A stretch of DNA of 64,000 nt, taken from the NCBI RefSeq assembly GCF_009707365.1, contig NZ_CP046122.1, forward strand, positions 1,550,001-1,614,000. The letters run 5' to 3'. This document shows positions 24,283 through 30,018 of the stretch, piece by piece. Source of the stretch: Microlunatus sp. Gsoil 973 (lineage in GTDB: Bacteria; Actinomycetota; Actinomycetes; Propionibacteriales; Propionibacteriaceae). The notes under the pieces were generated by a model. The model ran no database searches. It was given only the letters and a program-made list of their open reading frames with translations, and was not told the DNA's origin. The first letter of the stretch is position 1; each line of letters starts with the position of its first letter. The position numbers and the translations under genes were made by a program.

Positions 24283-26835
24283 ATGCCAACCGGTGCCACC
24301 CTCGACTCGCTCCGCGCCGGATGGCACAACCCGCCCCCGGACAGCCGTCCGATGATGCGGTGGTGGTGGTTCGGGCCGAACGTCGACCGGGATGAGCTCG
24401 ACCGGGAGCTCGGGGCGATGGCGGCTGCGGGCATCGGCGGCGTCGAGGTGTCCTACGTGTATCCCCTCGGATCCGAAAGCCCGGAACTGCTTTCGGCGAC
24501 CTTCTGTGGGCAACTGCGGTTTGCCGCCGAGCGGGCCCGGCAGCTCGGCCTCCGGTTCGATCTCACCCTCGGCAGCGGCTGGTCCTTCGGCGGACCGCAC
24601 ATCACCACCGACCTCGCCGCCAAGAAGCTGCACTGGGACCGCCGGGAGATCTCCGCCCCGGCCGTCGACATCCCGATCACGACCGGCTGGCCCGGTGATC
24701 AATTCGTCGCCGCGTTCCTCGCACCGGGCAGCGTCGGTGAACGTGCCGACTTCGTGCCGGTGGAGCTGGATGCCGGCGTGCTGAGGATTCCGGCCGGCAG
24801 CGGACCCCGCCAGTTGATCACAGCCGGCGTCAGGCCGACCGGCCAGGTGGTCAAGCGCGCCGCAGCCGGAGCAGACGGGCCGGTTCTTGATCACTATTCG
24901 GCCGCTGCGGCGCGCGCTCACATCGAACACCTCGCCGAACCACTGTTGCGGGCGGTCCCGGCGGAGCTGATCGGCTCGGTGTTCTGCGACAGTCTCGAGG
25001 TGTACGGCGCCAACTGGACACCGGCGATCGTCGACGAGTTCGCACATCGCCGCGGCTATCCGCTGCTCCCCCGGCTGTACCAGTTGATCATCGACACCTA
25101 CGGCTGCGAGCAGCTGCGGATCGACTACTACCGCACGCTGACCGAGCTGTACGAGGAGAACTTCGTTTCGATCTTCCAGGACTGGGCCGCCGGCCACGGT
25201 GTGCCGTTCCGGATCCAGGGCTACGGGACGCCGCCGGCATCGATCAGCAGCTACCGGTTCGCCGATCTCTACGAGGGTGAGGGATTCGGCTGGAAAGAAC
25301 TCACCCAGACCCGATGGGCCAGCTCGGCCGCCCATCACTACGGGCTGCCGGTGGTGTCATCCGAGACCTGGACCTGGGTCCATTCGCCGTCCTTCCGGGC
25401 GACTCCACTGGATCTCAAGGGCGAGGCGCATGAACACCTGCTGGCCGGGATCAACCAGATCATCGGCCACGGCTGGCCGTACTCGCCCGAAGTGACCGAG
25501 GGACTGGGCTGGTACTTCTACGCGGCCGGCGCGCTCGATGATCGCAACCCATGGTGGCCCGCGATGCCGGCACTGATGGCGTACCTGCAGCGATTGTGTT
25601 GGCTGATGCGCCAGGGCGAGCCCGCAGCCGACGTGCTGATCTATGTGCCCTGCGACGACATCTATCCGCGGCTCGGACACGAGGTCGGCGGCTCTCTCGA
25701 CCTGTGGAAGGAAGCCAGGACACACATCGACCCGGCCATCCCGGCCACCGTTCGGGACAACGGCTGGAACTTCGATCTTGTCGATGACGCCGCCCTGTCG
25801 GCTGTCAAGCCCGCTGCGGTCCCGGTGATCATCCTGCCCTCTGCCCGACGGATCCCGGAACCGACGCAGGCTTGGTTGGCCGACCATCGGACGGCCGGCG
25901 GTGCAGTGATCACCGTCGATCACGACGTAACGACACTTCGCGACGACATCGCCGCCGCCGTCGCACCCGAGTTGCAGATCTTTCCGGCGACAGGTGACAT
26001 CGGATCAGTCCGCCGCCGGATAGACGACGCCGACGTACACCTGGTGATCAACACCGGTCCGCACCCGCGCCGGATCCATGCCGATCCGCGTCAAGCGCGG
26101 ACCGGTTACGAGGTGTGGCACGCCGATACGGGCACGATCACCTCGGCGGGTGAACTTCGCGGACCGATCGCGGTCGACCTTGCTCCCTACCAGGCGGCTG
26201 TCATTGTCCTGCACGACAGCGCTGTTGCGCACCCCGAGGCCGGGACGCCGACGCTGACGCCGGCGGGGCCTGCGCTCGAACTCCGCGACTGGTCGGTGCG
26301 GTTCGGACCCGAATCTTTCGAAGAGGCCGCCGGCCGGGTCACCCTTCCGCACCGCTGGGAGGACGATCCGGCGCGGGCCAACTTCTCGGGCACGATCAAC
26401 TACCTGACCACGGTCGAGCTCGACCAGAGCTTCACCGCCGCCGGCCGCATGATGATCGACTTCGGCGAATCGACGCCGGTCGATGCCGGATCGTCCGAAC
26501 GAGACGGTGTCCGAGGCAACTCCTATCGGGTGCAGGTCACCACGCCGGTCCGCGAGGTGGTCCAGGTGATCGTGAACGGAACGCAGGCCGGAGTGTTGTG
26601 GGCGCCGCCGTACGCTCTCGACCTCACCGACCTGCTGCATCCGGGCGGCAACACGATCGAACTCGTGGTCAGCAACACCGCCGCCAACGCCCTTGCCGCC
26701 GACGCAGCCATCGACCGGCTCGTCCAGCAGAGCCGGGACAGCTATGGTCACCGATTCGTGATGCAGGATCTCGATCGGGCGATGGACTCGGTGAGCTCCG
26801 GCCTGCTCGGCGTTCCGGTGCTGCGCCGGGCCTGA
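24283..26835 (+). CDS. Glycoside hydrolase, GH106-like (alpha-L-rhamnosidase type)
   Basis: The 850-aa protein begins MPTGATLDSLRAGWHNPPPD and then SRPMMRWWWFGPNVDRDEL, the entry motif of GH106-type proteins. DLTLGSGWSFGGPHI and SVFCDSLEVYGANWTPAI (acidic residues at the barrel ends) follow. A GYGTPPASISSYRFADLYEGE segment and ASSAAHHYGLPVVSSETWTW lie downstream. The C-terminal region is a beta-sandwich ending in an N-A-A-N segment. CAGGAG precedes the ATG by five bases. No signal peptide is evident, so it likely acts on imported oligosaccharides. Rhamnoside specificity is inferred from the family only. Confidence 0.8.
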   Translation: MPTGATLDSLRAGWHNPPPDSRPMMRWWWFGPNVDRDELDRELGAMAAAGIGGVEVSYVYPLGSESPELLSATFCGQLRFAAERARQLGLRFDLTLGSGWSFGGPHITTDLAAKKLHWDRREISAPAVDIPITTGWPGDQFVAAFLAPGSVGERADFVPVELDAGVLRIPAGSGPRQLITAGVRPTGQVVKRAAAGADGPVLDHYSAAAARAHIEHLAEPLLRAVPAELIGSVFCDSLEVYGANWTPAIVDEFAHRRGYPLLPRLYQLIIDTYGCEQLRIDYYRTLTELYEENFVSIFQDWAAGHGVPFRIQGYGTPPASISSYRFADLYEGEGFGWKELTQTRWASSAAHHYGLPVVSSETWTWVHSPSFRATPLDLKGEAHEHLLAGINQIIGHGWPYSPEVTEGLGWYFYAAGALDDRNPWWPAMPALMAYLQRLCWLMRQGEPAADVLIYVPCDDIYPRLGHEVGGSLDLWKEARTHIDPAIPATVRDNGWNFDLVDDAALSAVKPAAVPVIILPSARRIPEPTQAWLADHRTAGGAVITVDHDVTTLRDDIAAAVAPELQIFPATGDIGSVRRRIDDADVHLVINTGPHPRRIHADPRQARTGYEVWHADTGTITSAGELRGPIAVDLAPYQAAVIVLHDSAVAHPEAGTPTLTPAGPALELRDWSVRFGPESFEEAAGRVTLPHRWEDDPARANFSGTINYLTTVELDQSFTAAGRMMIDFGESTPVDAGSSERDGVRGNSYRVQVTTPVREVVQVIVNGTQAGVLWAPPYALDLTDLLHPGGNTIELVVSNTAANALAADAAIDRLVQQSRDSYGHRFVMQDLDRAMDSVSSGLLGVPVLRRA

Positions 26836-26839
26836 CCGG

Positions 26840-27559
26840 TCAGGGCATGACGAGCGTGCCCACGTCCTCACCCTTGCAGATCGCAGCCATGGCGCCGGTG
26901 GCGTCGACGTCGAAGACGTGCATCGTCAGTTGATGATCATTGGCCAGGACGAATGCCGAGGTGTCCATGATCTTGATGCCCAACGTCAGCGCCTCCCGGT
27001 AGGTCAGCGTGCCGAAGCGGTGGGCATCGGCGTGTCGATTGGGATCCTTGTCGTAGACGGCGTCGACGCCACGCTTGGCGACGAGCAGGGCATCAGCGTC
27101 CAGTTCGAGGGCCCGCTGAACGGCCGGATAGTCGGTGGTGACGTACGGTTGACCGATCCCGCCGGCGAGGATGACAATGCGGCCGGCCCTCAGGTGCGCA
27201 TCGGCGCGCAGCCGGATGAAAGGCTCGGCGACGCTCTGCACGGGGATAGCCGTCATCACCCGGACGTCGGCGTCGGTCATCGCCGTCAGCGAGCCGCGCA
27301 GCATCAGGCCGTTCATGATCGTTCCGAGGATGCCGATGTTGTCGGCCTCGGCACGGCCGATCCCCCACTCCTCGGCCTCCCGTCCGCGAAAGTAGTTCCC
27401 GCCGCCGACGACGACCGCAACCTCCATGCCCAGCTGGTGGACGGCGAGCACCTCGGTGGCGAGATGCCGCAGCGCCGACGGATCAACACCCCATCCGGAC
27501 GGGCCGGAGATCGCTTCGCCGCTGAGCTTGAGCACCAACCGGCTGTACCGGTATCCCAC
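26840..27559 (-). CDS. pyrH: UMP-kinase-like protein (PyrH paralog)
   Basis: The 239-aa amino-acid-kinase-fold protein would phosphorylate UMP to UDP. The start is the GTG at 27559, preceded by GGAGGTGA. It has LVLKLSGEAISG, VVGGGNYFRGR, VAEPFIRLRADAHLRAGRIVIL and AKRGVDAVYDKDPN. Several usually invariant stretches differ: NIGILGTIMNGLMLRG for MGMLAT-type, and GGIGQPYVTTD for GTGNPFFTTD. In this phylum the housekeeping pyrH lies by tsf/frr, so this copy is probably a paralog. A 10-codon ORF (27596-27564) ends inside its ribosome binding site. It is divergent from the ThrRS paralog. Confidence 0.8.
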   Translation of the reverse strand: MGYRYSRLVLKLSGEAISGPSGWGVDPSALRHLATEVLAVHQLGMEVAVVVGGGNYFRGREAEEWGIGRAEADNIGILGTIMNGLMLRGSLTAMTDADVRVMTAIPVQSVAEPFIRLRADAHLRAGRIVILAGGIGQPYVTTDYPAVQRALELDADALLVAKRGVDAVYDKDPNRHADAHRFGTLTYREALTLGIKIMDTSAFVLANDHQLTMHVFDVDATGAMAAICKGEDVGTLVMP

Positions 27560-27588
27560 AGCGTCACCTCCTGCGCCGCAGATAGGAG

Positions 27589-27618
27589 TTGTGCATCCTG
27601 CACCGCACGGCCTACCGT
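27589..27618 (+). promoter_or_regulatory. Promoter of the Thr leader, with GTGCA/TGCAC dyad
   Basis: TTGTGC (27589-27594) and TACCGT (27613-27618) are spaced by 18 bases. The -10 ends seven bases before the ATG at 27626, consistent with a leaderless transcript starting at that A. GTGCA-TCC-TGCAC (27591-27603) overlaps the -35 region and could be an operator for this and the divergent pyrH-like gene. Confidence 0.5.
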
Positions 27619-27625
27619 AATGGGT

Positions 27626-27682
27626 ATGGCGATCCAGCAACTCACGACGACGCCGGTTACCTCCGGCGCCGCACTGTGCTGA
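27626..27682 (+). CDS. Thr-rich leader peptide of ThrRS paralog
   Basis: The 18-residue peptide MAIQQLTTTPVTSGAALC has three consecutive Thr codons (ACG ACG ACG, 27644-27652), then a fourth (ACC), and stops at TGA. An in-frame ATG two codons upstream (27620) is an alternative start. It lies between a leaderless-type promoter and a terminator-like hairpin, ahead of a threonyl-tRNA synthetase gene. This is the arrangement of ribosome-mediated attenuation by threonyl-tRNA supply. No ribosome binding site is visible, in keeping with leaderless translation. Confidence 0.7.
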   Translation: MAIQQLTTTPVTSGAALC

Positions 27683-27730
27683 GCTGATCAGCCCTCACGC
27701 ATTCGAGCCCCGGAGTCCGACTCCGGGGTT
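27661..27730 (+). terminator. Thr attenuator: terminator and competing antiterminator
   Basis: CCCCGGAGT-CCG-ACTCCGGGG (27708-27728) is a perfect nine-base-pair stem, extended by G-U and A-U to 27706-27730. It is followed by CTGTCGTT. Its left arm CCGGAG (27710-27715) can instead pair with CTCCGG (27661-27666), which overlaps the leader codons just after the Thr run. A ribosome stalled at ACG ACG ACG would leave CTCCGG free to form the antiterminator. A ribosome reaching the TGA would cover it and let the terminator form. Confidence 0.65.
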
Positions 27731-27785
27731 CTGTCGTTCCTGATCGTCACAGCCCCGGGCAGGACTCCCTGATCAGGAGATATCG

Positions 27786-29108
27786 ATGAACGGAAACGTG
27801 ATCAACAAACCCGGTGAAACCAGGGCGCGGAAGTCGATCGACAACCAGCCCCGGCGACCAGGCCGTGATCACCGGGAACTGGGCCGGGACATGCACCTCT
27901 TCGCCGGCAATCCCATCGTCGGCGCCGGCCTGCCGCTGTGGCTTCCAGCCGGCGCGGTGATCCGTCGGGAACTGGAGCAGTACGCCCACGAGATGGCGGT
28001 CCGTACCGGTTGTCAGGGGGTCTACTCCCCGGTATTGGCCAAACGAGAACTCTTCGAACGCTCCGGTCACTGGGCGAAGTTCAGCGACGACATGTTCCCG
28101 GTGATGGAACTGGGCAGCAATGCCGGTGATGATCAGCTGGTGCTCCGGCCGGCCAATTGCCCGCACCACGCGATGATCTACGCCGCCGGCCAGCACAGTT
28201 ACCGTGAGCTGCCGATCCGCTACAACGAATTGGCGCCGATGTTCCGTGCCGAGCGTTCGGGAGTGCTGTCCGGGCTCAGTCGGGTGCGGCAGATCAGTCT
28301 CGACGACACCCACGTGTTCTGCCGCCCTGACCAGTTGGCCACCGAGGTGGCGCTGGCCATGGACGGCGTGTTGGAGTCGTATGACGTGCTCGGTATCGGG
28401 ATCCACCGGCTGCGGTTGTCCCGACGCGGACCCGGCGACGGGTATTTGGGGCCGATCGACCAGTGGAGACACGCTGAAGATCAACTCCGCGACGTGCTGG
28501 ACGCCATCCGAAGCTCCCGCCCCGATCTCGAGGTTCTCGAGGCGCCGGGCGAGGCCGCCTTCTACGGGCCGAAGATCGACGTGCAGGTCGTCGATGCCCG
28601 CGGCCAGGAGGAGACCCTGTCCACCGTTCAATTGGATTTCAACCAGCCGGAACGGTTCGAGCTCGACTACGTCGCGGACGACGGTTCCCGGCAGCGGGTG
28701 ATCATGATCCATCGTGGGCTGCTCAGCTCCATGGAGCGGATGGTGGCGTTTCTGCTGGAGATCACCGATGGCTGGCTCCCGCTGTGGTTGGCTCCCGTTC
28801 AGCTCAGCCTGCTGCCCGTGGCCGCGGCCCACCATGATCACGCGTACGGCCTGGCCGATCGTCTCCGCCGGTCAGGGATCCGGGTGCAGGTGGCCGCCGA
28901 CGGCACCCTGGGCAGCCGGATCCGCGACGCGCGCCGGGAACGCACCACAGTGATCGGCGTCATCGGCGATGCGGAGATGGCGTCGGATTCGCTCGCGGTG
29001 CAGGAACTGCCGACCGGCCCCCGCCAGCAGCTTGCGACCGGGGAGTTGGTCAGCCGGCTGTCCGCTGCTGTCGCCGAACGGGCCCGCGGGCCGTACCTTG
29101 CGGACTGA
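27786..29108 (+). CDS. Threonyl-tRNA synthetase paralog lacking N-terminal editing domains
   Basis: The 440-aa protein charges tRNA-Thr by pattern. It starts at the catalytic core (HLFAGNPIVGAGLPLWLPAG), so the TGS and editing domains of the usual 640-690-aa enzyme are missing. Zinc ligands are present as Cys in RPANCPHH, His in DDTHVFC and His in MIHRGLL. Motif 2 reads RYNELAPMFRAERSGVLSGL. A C-terminal anticodon-binding domain follows from WLPLWLAPVQLSLLP. TCAGGAG precedes the ATG. Expression is probably set by the Thr leader attenuator. A backup or inhibitor-resistant ThrRS induced when the main enzyme fails is a reasonable inference. Confidence 0.88.
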   Translation: MNGNVINKPGETRARKSIDNQPRRPGRDHRELGRDMHLFAGNPIVGAGLPLWLPAGAVIRRELEQYAHEMAVRTGCQGVYSPVLAKRELFERSGHWAKFSDDMFPVMELGSNAGDDQLVLRPANCPHHAMIYAAGQHSYRELPIRYNELAPMFRAERSGVLSGLSRVRQISLDDTHVFCRPDQLATEVALAMDGVLESYDVLGIGIHRLRLSRRGPGDGYLGPIDQWRHAEDQLRDVLDAIRSSRPDLEVLEAPGEAAFYGPKIDVQVVDARGQEETLSTVQLDFNQPERFELDYVADDGSRQRVIMIHRGLLSSMERMVAFLLEITDGWLPLWLAPVQLSLLPVAAAHHDHAYGLADRLRRSGIRVQVAADGTLGSRIRDARRERTTVIGVIGDAEMASDSLAVQELPTGPRQQLATGELVSRLSAAVAERARGPYLAD

Positions 29109-29117
29109 CCCGCCGGG

Positions 29118-29882
29118 TCAGGGCTTGATCCCGACCGGATAGACCCTGAGCTGGGCCACCTTGCCCTGACAGGCCGAGGTCTTGAAGGGCACGTAGGCCG
29201 CGGTGTAGGAGTCCGGTGGGTAGACGCGGAACCCGTCCGACGTCGTTGGCTGGCATTGCTTCGGGTCGAAGTTGCCGGCGTCGGCGATCTGCAGCAGTTC
29301 GGACTTCGTGCTGCCGGACGCCAGCCGTACCGTTGCGGGCGCCCTCGAGCGATCCCGAACGGCCGGTTTGCCGAGTTGGGTACCGTCCTGGTGCCCGACG
29401 AAGGAGACGCCGGCGTAGCCGTAGATGGTGCATGCCTGCGACGACTTGTTGGTGAAGGTGAGCAGGACGTACTGGCTGCCCGCGGCGCCGCCGCCGACCG
29501 GAACGCGAACTCCGATGTTCAGGTCGCCGAGGCCACACTTGGTCACGGCGTTCGCCCCGCCGGAGTCTCCGCGCTCCGACGGACCGCCTCCGGAATTGCC
29601 GGAGCCGGTGTTGTCGTCAGAGCCCGCGCCCTTGCTCTTTCCGGAGCCACTGTCCTTGGTGGACTTGCCGGACGGTGCGGTCTTCTTCGCCGACGGGCTC
29701 GAGGCGGGCGAGTCGGGCTTACTGGGGGTCGCCGAGGTCGGGGACGCGGGAGACACCGCGACCGTACTCGCCGGCGCGGCCGGTCCGCCGACCTCGACGC
29801 CGTTGCCACAGCCGACCAGCCAGGAAGCCGCCGCAGCGCTCACCGCGAGTGCTGCCATCCGGGTACCGGTCGACCTGATCAT
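29118..29882 (-). CDS. DUF4232 lipoprotein
   Basis: The 254-aa secreted lipoprotein starts MIRSTGTRMAALAVSAAAASW and has a lipobox LVGC. A Ser/Pro/Lys/Gly-rich linker (about 30-110) follows, then a DUF4232 domain starting at TKCGLGDLNIGVRV, with LLTFTNKSSQACTIYGYAG. Paired Cys residues suggest disulfides. The domain is common in actinobacterial exported proteins of unknown role. A longer open frame exists upstream, but the start at 29882 fits a signal peptide. It converges on the ThrRS paralog with 9 bases between. Confidence 0.75.
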   Translation of the reverse strand: MIRSTGTRMAALAVSAAAASWLVGCGNGVEVGGPAAPASTVAVSPASPTSATPSKPDSPASSPSAKKTAPSGKSTKDSGSGKSKGAGSDDNTGSGNSGGGPSERGDSGGANAVTKCGLGDLNIGVRVPVGGGAAGSQYVLLTFTNKSSQACTIYGYAGVSFVGHQDGTQLGKPAVRDRSRAPATVRLASGSTKSELLQIADAGNFDPKQCQPTTSDGFRVYPPDSYTAAYVPFKTSACQGKVAQLRVYPVGIKP

Positions 29883-30018
29883 GCTCTGCACGGTACGGGG
29901 CACCGCTCGCGGTGGTGTCTCACCAGTGTCACAGCTTCCTCTCGATCCCCGGTACCTCATCTGTATCAGGTCGTCTTCGTCGTCCCGCGGCCATCCGATG
30001 TCCCGCGTGTCGTCGCGG

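Follow-up and report, generated by a model that had tools for sequence, protein, structure and literature searches.

A threonine-codon leader precedes a short ThrRS gene

The locus studied here raises the question of how the gene for a second, short threonyl-tRNA synthetase (ThrRS) is controlled, and for which purpose the enzyme might be kept besides the housekeeping ThrRS of the same genome. The gene lies at positions 27786–29108 of the window, as we call the entire analyzed stretch of 64,000 nt from Microlunatus sp. Gsoil 973, and encodes a protein of 440 amino acids that matches only PF00587 and PF03129 and scores above the cut-off of NCBIfam thrS. A sequence-only reading had interpreted the region directly upstream (27589–27785) as an attenuator that senses threonyl-tRNA. 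This gene and all elements of its leader region are on the forward strand.

For comparison, genomes were scanned for ThrRS relatives, yielding 80 loci. The actinobacterial ones (L004–L053 and L055) are all short ThrRS genes, and the others are mostly full-length ThrRS genes of Bacillota. Together with the window, this gives 52 actinobacterial loci. The nearest named relatives of the window's enzyme belong to Microlunatus parietis and M. speluncae (63–64% identical). An upstream short ORF with two or three threonine codons followed by a proline codon was found in all 52 loci, the motif mostly being TTTPD or TTTPE.

The leader peptide gene of the window follows a predicted −10 hexamer, TACCGT (27613–27618), which lies 7 nt 5′ of the leader ATG and is separated by a spacer of 18 nt from the −35-like hexamer TTGTGC (27589–27594). 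Across the 52 rows, 45 have a TANNNT hexamer whose end lies 5–8 nt ahead of the leader start, with 0.2 expected from the local background, and TTG is present 17–18 nt from the −10 element in 14 of the 52 relatives (1.2 expected). The window's own hexamer fits the second in-frame ATG, at a distance of 7 nt, and use of a second start would also account for several of the other exceptions. Judged from the sequence, the promoter layout is that of leaderless transcripts, as had been proposed. The start of the Streptomyces lividans thrL, too, was mapped as leaderless via RNA-seq (PMC8079986).

The leader ORF (27626–27682), called thrL in the following, has 18 codons and encodes the peptide MAIQQLTTTPVTSGAALC, terminated by a stop codon. 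Its codons read ATG GCG ATC CAG CAA CTC ACG ACG ACG CCG GTT ACC TCC GGC GCC GCA CTG TGC TGA. The three consecutive ACG codons (27644–27652) are the putative regulatory codons, and threonine occupies positions 1, 2 and 3 in 49, 52 and 51 of the 52 relatives, respectively. All elements of the earlier description were located at the positions given there, but the fourth threonine codon included in it (ACC, 27659–27661) is not conserved, which leaves the ACG run as the putative sensor.

Segment 1 (CGCCGGT, 27651–27657) is the partner of segment 2 (CTCCGGCG, 27661–27668), which contains CTCCGG at 27661–27666 and can pair alternatively with segment 3 (GAGCCCCGGAGT, 27705–27716) through CCGGAG at 27710–27715. 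Segment 3 is at the same time the left arm of a terminator-like hairpin, the right arm of which is segment 4 (ACTCCGGGGTTC, 27720–27731). A T-poor tail (TGTCGTTCCTG, 27732–27742) follows this hairpin; in relatives, the tails commonly end TTCGTCGT. The predicted ribosome-binding site of thrS, AGGAG (27775–27779), is situated outside of the terminator. The full layout of leader and hairpins was found before 51 of the 52 actinobacterial short ThrRS genes. These 51 loci have ACG-CCGG...CCGG-CG, followed after 18–38 nt by a hairpin of the form GCCCCGGAG-loop-CTCCGGGGC or a close variant. In the remaining locus, L055, the threonine run is retained and no 3:4 hairpin is recognizable.

Mutually exclusive pairings and covariation

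In the alignment of the 51 leaders, 90% of cells are paired in the structure composed of 1:2 and 3:4, and 7 pairs show two-sided changes. The covariation score is 0.115; shuffled alignments score 0.055 and slid controls no more than 0.062. The 1:2 helix alone is paired in 95.5% of cells. The 3:4 stem covaries, with both-sided changes in 6 of its 12 pairs.

The competing 2:3 pairing (CTCCGG:CCGGAG) is possible in 96.7% of cells and shows compensatory changes, C-G being replaced by U-A in the Nocardia/Rhodococcus group; overall, segments 1 to 3 vary little and few two-sided changes occur there. In divergent families segment 2 reads CCCGG or ACCCG, and segment 3 changes in step to CCGGG or CGGGT. 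When segments were swapped between lineages, the 2:3 complementarity usually fell, though not in every small group. These observations bear out the assertion that CTCCGG can capture the left arm of the terminator. The comparison across relatives that the sequence-only reading had recommended found both the threonine codons conserved and the hairpins covarying.

The pairings 1:2, 2:3 and 3:4 are mutually exclusive, and a ribosome stalled on the threonine codons would mask segment 1 only. The position of the stop codon and the two hairpins, 1:2 and 3:4, are consistent with the classical attenuation scheme. We consider it very probable that thrL is a classical ribosome-mediated transcription attenuator controlling an auxiliary ThrRS without editing domain. 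The transcript would begin at the leader ATG or next to it. When the threonyl-tRNA that reads ACG is scarce, the leading ribosome would stall on ACG ACG ACG and cover segment 1. Segment 2, remaining free, would pair with segment 3, the 3:4 hairpin would form too late, and RNA polymerase would enter thrS. With plentiful threonyl-tRNA, the ribosome would run over segment 2, the 3:4 hairpin would form, and transcription would end before thrS. The parts of the attenuator, their conservation, their covariation and the codon bias described below can be read from the sequence, and from them we infer actual termination, a response to threonyl-tRNA and a kinetic advantage of 2:3 over 3:4.

To model a stalled ribosome, we folded the nascent RNA as far as segment 3 and placed at each codon in turn a footprint that begins 15 nt before the A site and extends 12 nt from it. 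Over 51 loci, the mean predicted probability of the 2:3 pairing was 0.95, 0.94 and 0.85 when the first, second and third threonine codon, respectively, occupied the A site. It was 0.79 one codon before the first threonine codon and about 0.2 further upstream, and it dropped to 0.12 one codon downstream of the run and to at most 0.01 beyond. Together with conservation and covariation, this folding strongly supports ribosome-mediated attenuation at the threonine codons. In the complete RNA at equilibrium, 3:4 is favored in nearly all loci even with a stalled ribosome; antitermination would therefore have to be kinetic.

The putative terminator hairpin is strong and conserved and its tail is T-poor. 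A simple terminator scan does not flag the 3:4 hairpin because the tail (TTCTGTCGTTC) is poor in T. Such tails would suit a different reading, in which the hairpins act on the translation of thrS or on Rho entry instead of intrinsic termination. However, the ribosome-binding site at 27775–27779 lies outside the 3:4 hairpin, at a distance of more than 40 nt downstream, and the tail of the attenuator resembles that of a tuf hairpin in the same genus, which makes an action on translation or Rho unlikely. By analogy with tuf, a GC-rich stem with a T-poor tail may be the usual form of terminators in this genus.

Distribution of the leader

The leader is also present at 14 further short ThrRS loci from the genus and order of the window, so that the threonine-run peptide is kept before 66 of 66 short ThrRS loci. 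To search more widely, a covariance model was trained on 51 homologous leaders, including that of the window. In the genome to which the window belongs, a single contig of 4.9 Mb, it found one strong site (77.7 bits), the next match reaching 24.6 bits. Of the 20 genomes of the genus, 7 have the paralog; all of these gave strong matches (≥46 bits), and the 13 without it gave no such match. Two weak matches (33–34 bits, in G018 and G010) were rejected as leaders, being hairpins after tuf. In these tuf hairpins (L188 and L189), the stem is GC-rich and the tail poor in T (CGTCGTCCCCGG), resembling stem and tail of the attenuator.

In 396 genomes from the phylum, each of the eight best matches, not counting the window's own, precedes a short ThrRS gene; phylum matches below about 33 bits were excluded from the leader count. 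In a streptomycete-like genus, a tight leader pattern was detected in 123 of 296 genomes and the reversed control pattern in none. There, ThrRS sequence adjoins the leader in all 30 loci checked, a few matches being partial. At the level of sequence, the thrL element is conserved across Actinobacteria, and it is present in all sampled branches of the clade of short ThrRSs.

The sequence upstream of the housekeeping ThrRS gene in the window's genome has no threonine-run leader. A T-box or another known RNA family before thrS was considered as well and rejected, as the window has no match in Rfam at the gathering score and a lax search returned only chance matches, with no T-box among these weak ones.

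Upstream of thrL-thrS, a GH106 rhamnosidase gene (24283–26835, +), and downstream, a gene for a DUF4232 protein (29118–29960, −), are kept in the genomes G006, G011 and G012. A second UMP kinase (pyrH-like) gene (26840–27562, −) sits between the GH106 gene and thrL, divergent from the leader, and is 46% identical to the genome's copy at 755743–756447. Of the genus loci checked, only this one and that of G012 (88% identical) have it next to thrL. The short thrS of G012 (L089) is divided between two frames and contains one in-frame TAG, the leader being intact; this gene looks broken, or the assembly contains an error.

The putative sensor codon is largely avoided in short thrS

The threonine codons of the leader are ACG in 32, 47 and 51 of the 52 loci at codons 1, 2 and 3, respectively, and codon 1 uses all four synonyms. 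Codon 3 overlaps the 1:2 stem and codon 2 lies outside of it. The short thrS genes show the reverse: in 44 loci ACG makes up 7.3% of their threonine codons vs 36% in neighboring genes, with a paired p of 6e-11 that can serve as a guide only, as the loci are related. In the same domains of the housekeeping ThrRS, ACG accounts for 31%. The short ThrRSs of these 44 loci are also poor in threonine, with 2.6% of residues compared with 6.1% in the neighbors and 3.7% in the housekeeping ThrRS.

Replication gave the same picture. In the streptomycete-like genus, none of 258 threonine codons in short thrS is ACG (neighbors 36.5%), and in divergent families 2 of 84 are (neighbors 32%).

General avoidance of NNG codons was rejected as the cause, as other amino acids are largely unchanged: the odds ratio of G-ending codons in short thrS vs neighbors is 0.14 for threonine and 0.77–1.16 for alanine, serine, proline, valine, leucine, arginine and glutamate. 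A codon bias linked to expression level is insufficient on its own, considering about 22% ACG in the genome's own 19-kb region with ribosomal protein operons, and the value for the housekeeping ThrRS. In the same comparison of 44 genes, two further amino acids differ mildly, GGG for glycine being commoner (odds ratio 1.44) and AAG for lysine rarer (0.41) in short thrS.

The threonine codons in the leader might also be a by-product of a ACGACGACGCCGG motif conserved at the DNA level, for instance as a protein-binding site. In its favor, ACG is almost invariable at codons 2 and 3, and the third codon overlaps segment 1. Yet the four synonyms at codon 1, the peptide ending in two frames (SGA or LRR) while the frame from start to threonine is kept, and the ACG avoidance of the downstream gene, which a DNA motif would leave unexplained, render this origin highly improbable.

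Under ribosome-mediated attenuation, the codon pattern can be related to tRNA charging. Among the tRNA loci examined, the genome has one tRNA-Thr gene each with the anticodons CGT, TGT and GGT, and selective charging of isoacceptors predicts such a pattern for attenuator codons (PMC1183508). The signature suggests that the leader senses the ACG-reading tRNA-Thr and that short thrS is built for translation when this tRNA is uncharged. The avoidance of ACG would then protect translation of the short enzyme.

The short ThrRS and its possible role

The short ThrRS consists of the class II core and the anticodon-binding domain only, and it aligns to solved bacterial ThrRS over these two domains only. 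The TGS and editing domains are absent. The designation as an editing-deficient paralog thus holds for the domain content, and this absence is what points to a deficiency of the enzyme in editing. The second, housekeeping ThrRS of the genome has 662 amino acids as read and is 37% identical to the short paralog. In the phylogenetic analysis, the short ThrRSs form one clade (support 100/98), apart from those of Bacillota and E. coli and from the actinobacterial housekeeping ThrRSs. In this clade, sequences of distant orders and classes intermingle, suggesting that short thrS and its leader travel together.

The catalytic residues are retained in the short enzymes, which most likely provide an inducible backup when the housekeeping ThrRS fails, be it through an inhibitor or through starvation. 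A substitute for zinc starvation, with the leader as a second layer of control, appears quite improbable: Anabaena is known to have a second ThrRS that is induced when zinc is low (PMC4787780; PMC9437257), but the zinc ligands C334, H385 and H511 are invariant in all 52 short enzymes and the conserved upstream signal is a threonine leader.

A more specific version of the backup role is that of an inhibitor-resistant ThrRS, modeled on the indolmycin-resistant TrpRS1 of Streptomyces coelicolor. An antibiotic targeting ThrRS would starve tRNA-Thr of its amino acid, the attenuator would open and the resistant enzyme would take over. The position of E. coli Y313 is F in 52 of 52 short enzymes and that of M332 is A in 51 and S in one. 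F313 and A332 distinguish the short clade from E. coli, Bacillota and the genome's own housekeeping ThrRS. The human counterparts aligning with these two positions, Y392 and M411, are listed as borrelidin-contact residues (PMC4389257). Changes at L489 make E. coli resistant to borrelidin; 49 of 52 short enzymes have Q at this position, and the distribution of the paralog is patchy (7 of 20 genomes in the genus), also in line with resistance. However, Q489 is common to the own housekeeping ThrRS, the obafluorin-resistance change G463S is absent (G in 52 of 52 short ThrRSs), and there is no antibiotic gene cluster shown at the locus. Resistance is thus possible but rather doubtful, and resistance of the borrelidin type a lead suggested by aligned residues and not a result.

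Taken further, the switch would read one branch of threonine isoacceptors, the ACG-reading tRNAs as the first to lose their charge, and its target would be purged of ACG and poor in threonine. Combined with the altered active site, leader and gene might serve Actinobacteria widely as a self-contained, horizontally spread cassette for emergencies in which ThrRS is inhibited, a proposal we regard as plausible and put forward tentatively.

Comparison with known systems

Droste et al. 2021 listed thrL before thrS in S. lividans TK24 (SLIV_19412/SLIV_19410) and called termination unclear, a doubt with the same cause, the T-poor tail (PMC8079986). The identical peptide, MKRVRPFLETTPGFVPAR, was found in G670, where the leader has the CCCGG version of segments 2–4 and precedes a short ThrRS that is 50% identical to that of the window. 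By this likeness, the window's element is of the same kind as the S. lividans thrL described there and is not unprecedented. The view of the sequence-only reading that such control of a ThrRS gene is unusual was not supported for Actinobacteria, in which leader-peptide attenuators before trpS, leuS, alaS and thrS were already reported (PMC1262725; PMC8079986).

Our literature search, mainly of papers available without subscription, found no earlier report of thrL conservation, its pairings or its codon signature. What appears to be new is that the threonine codons of the leader are almost all ACG while short thrS nearly avoids ACG. With this analysis, the thrL reported from a single strain becomes a regulatory element of the whole phylum, with a mechanism that can be tested and a tie to one clade of editing-less ThrRS paralogs. 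As the sensor codon stands in the leader and is nearly missing from the target, synonymous changes offer a direct test of the theory that tRNAs are charged selectively. Many actinomycetes would hold an inducible reserve against ThrRS inhibitors if the paralogs are resistant to this drug class.

The closest known system is thrL-thrS of S. lividans, which shares the leaderless threonine-codon leader peptide and the hairpin before thrS. In its accessible part, that report covers one strain with two threonine codons and one hairpin, and lacks alternative pairings, conservation, the link to the editing-less clade and the codon avoidance (PMC8079986). The attenuator of trpRS1 in S. coelicolor (Vecchione and Sello 2010, as cited in PMC4787780) likewise controls an auxiliary synthetase by ribosome-mediated attenuation in an actinomycete; there, tryptophan is sensed and indolmycin resistance is established according to that citation, whereas here threonine would be sensed and resistance is only conjectured. 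The trpS and leuS attenuators of Streptomyces (PMC1262725) are also classical attenuators before actinobacterial synthetase genes, serving other amino acids; in the same survey, no conserved RNA structure was reported before threonine operons, and thrS goes unmentioned. A second bacterial ThrRS gene is shared with ObaO, which has the G463S change absent in the short ThrRSs, and with Anabaena, where it is controlled by zinc. The leader of the E. coli thr operon is a threonine-codon attenuator as well, but it controls biosynthesis and favors ACC with eight codons (PMC1183508), whereas thrL favors ACG and precedes a synthetase gene.
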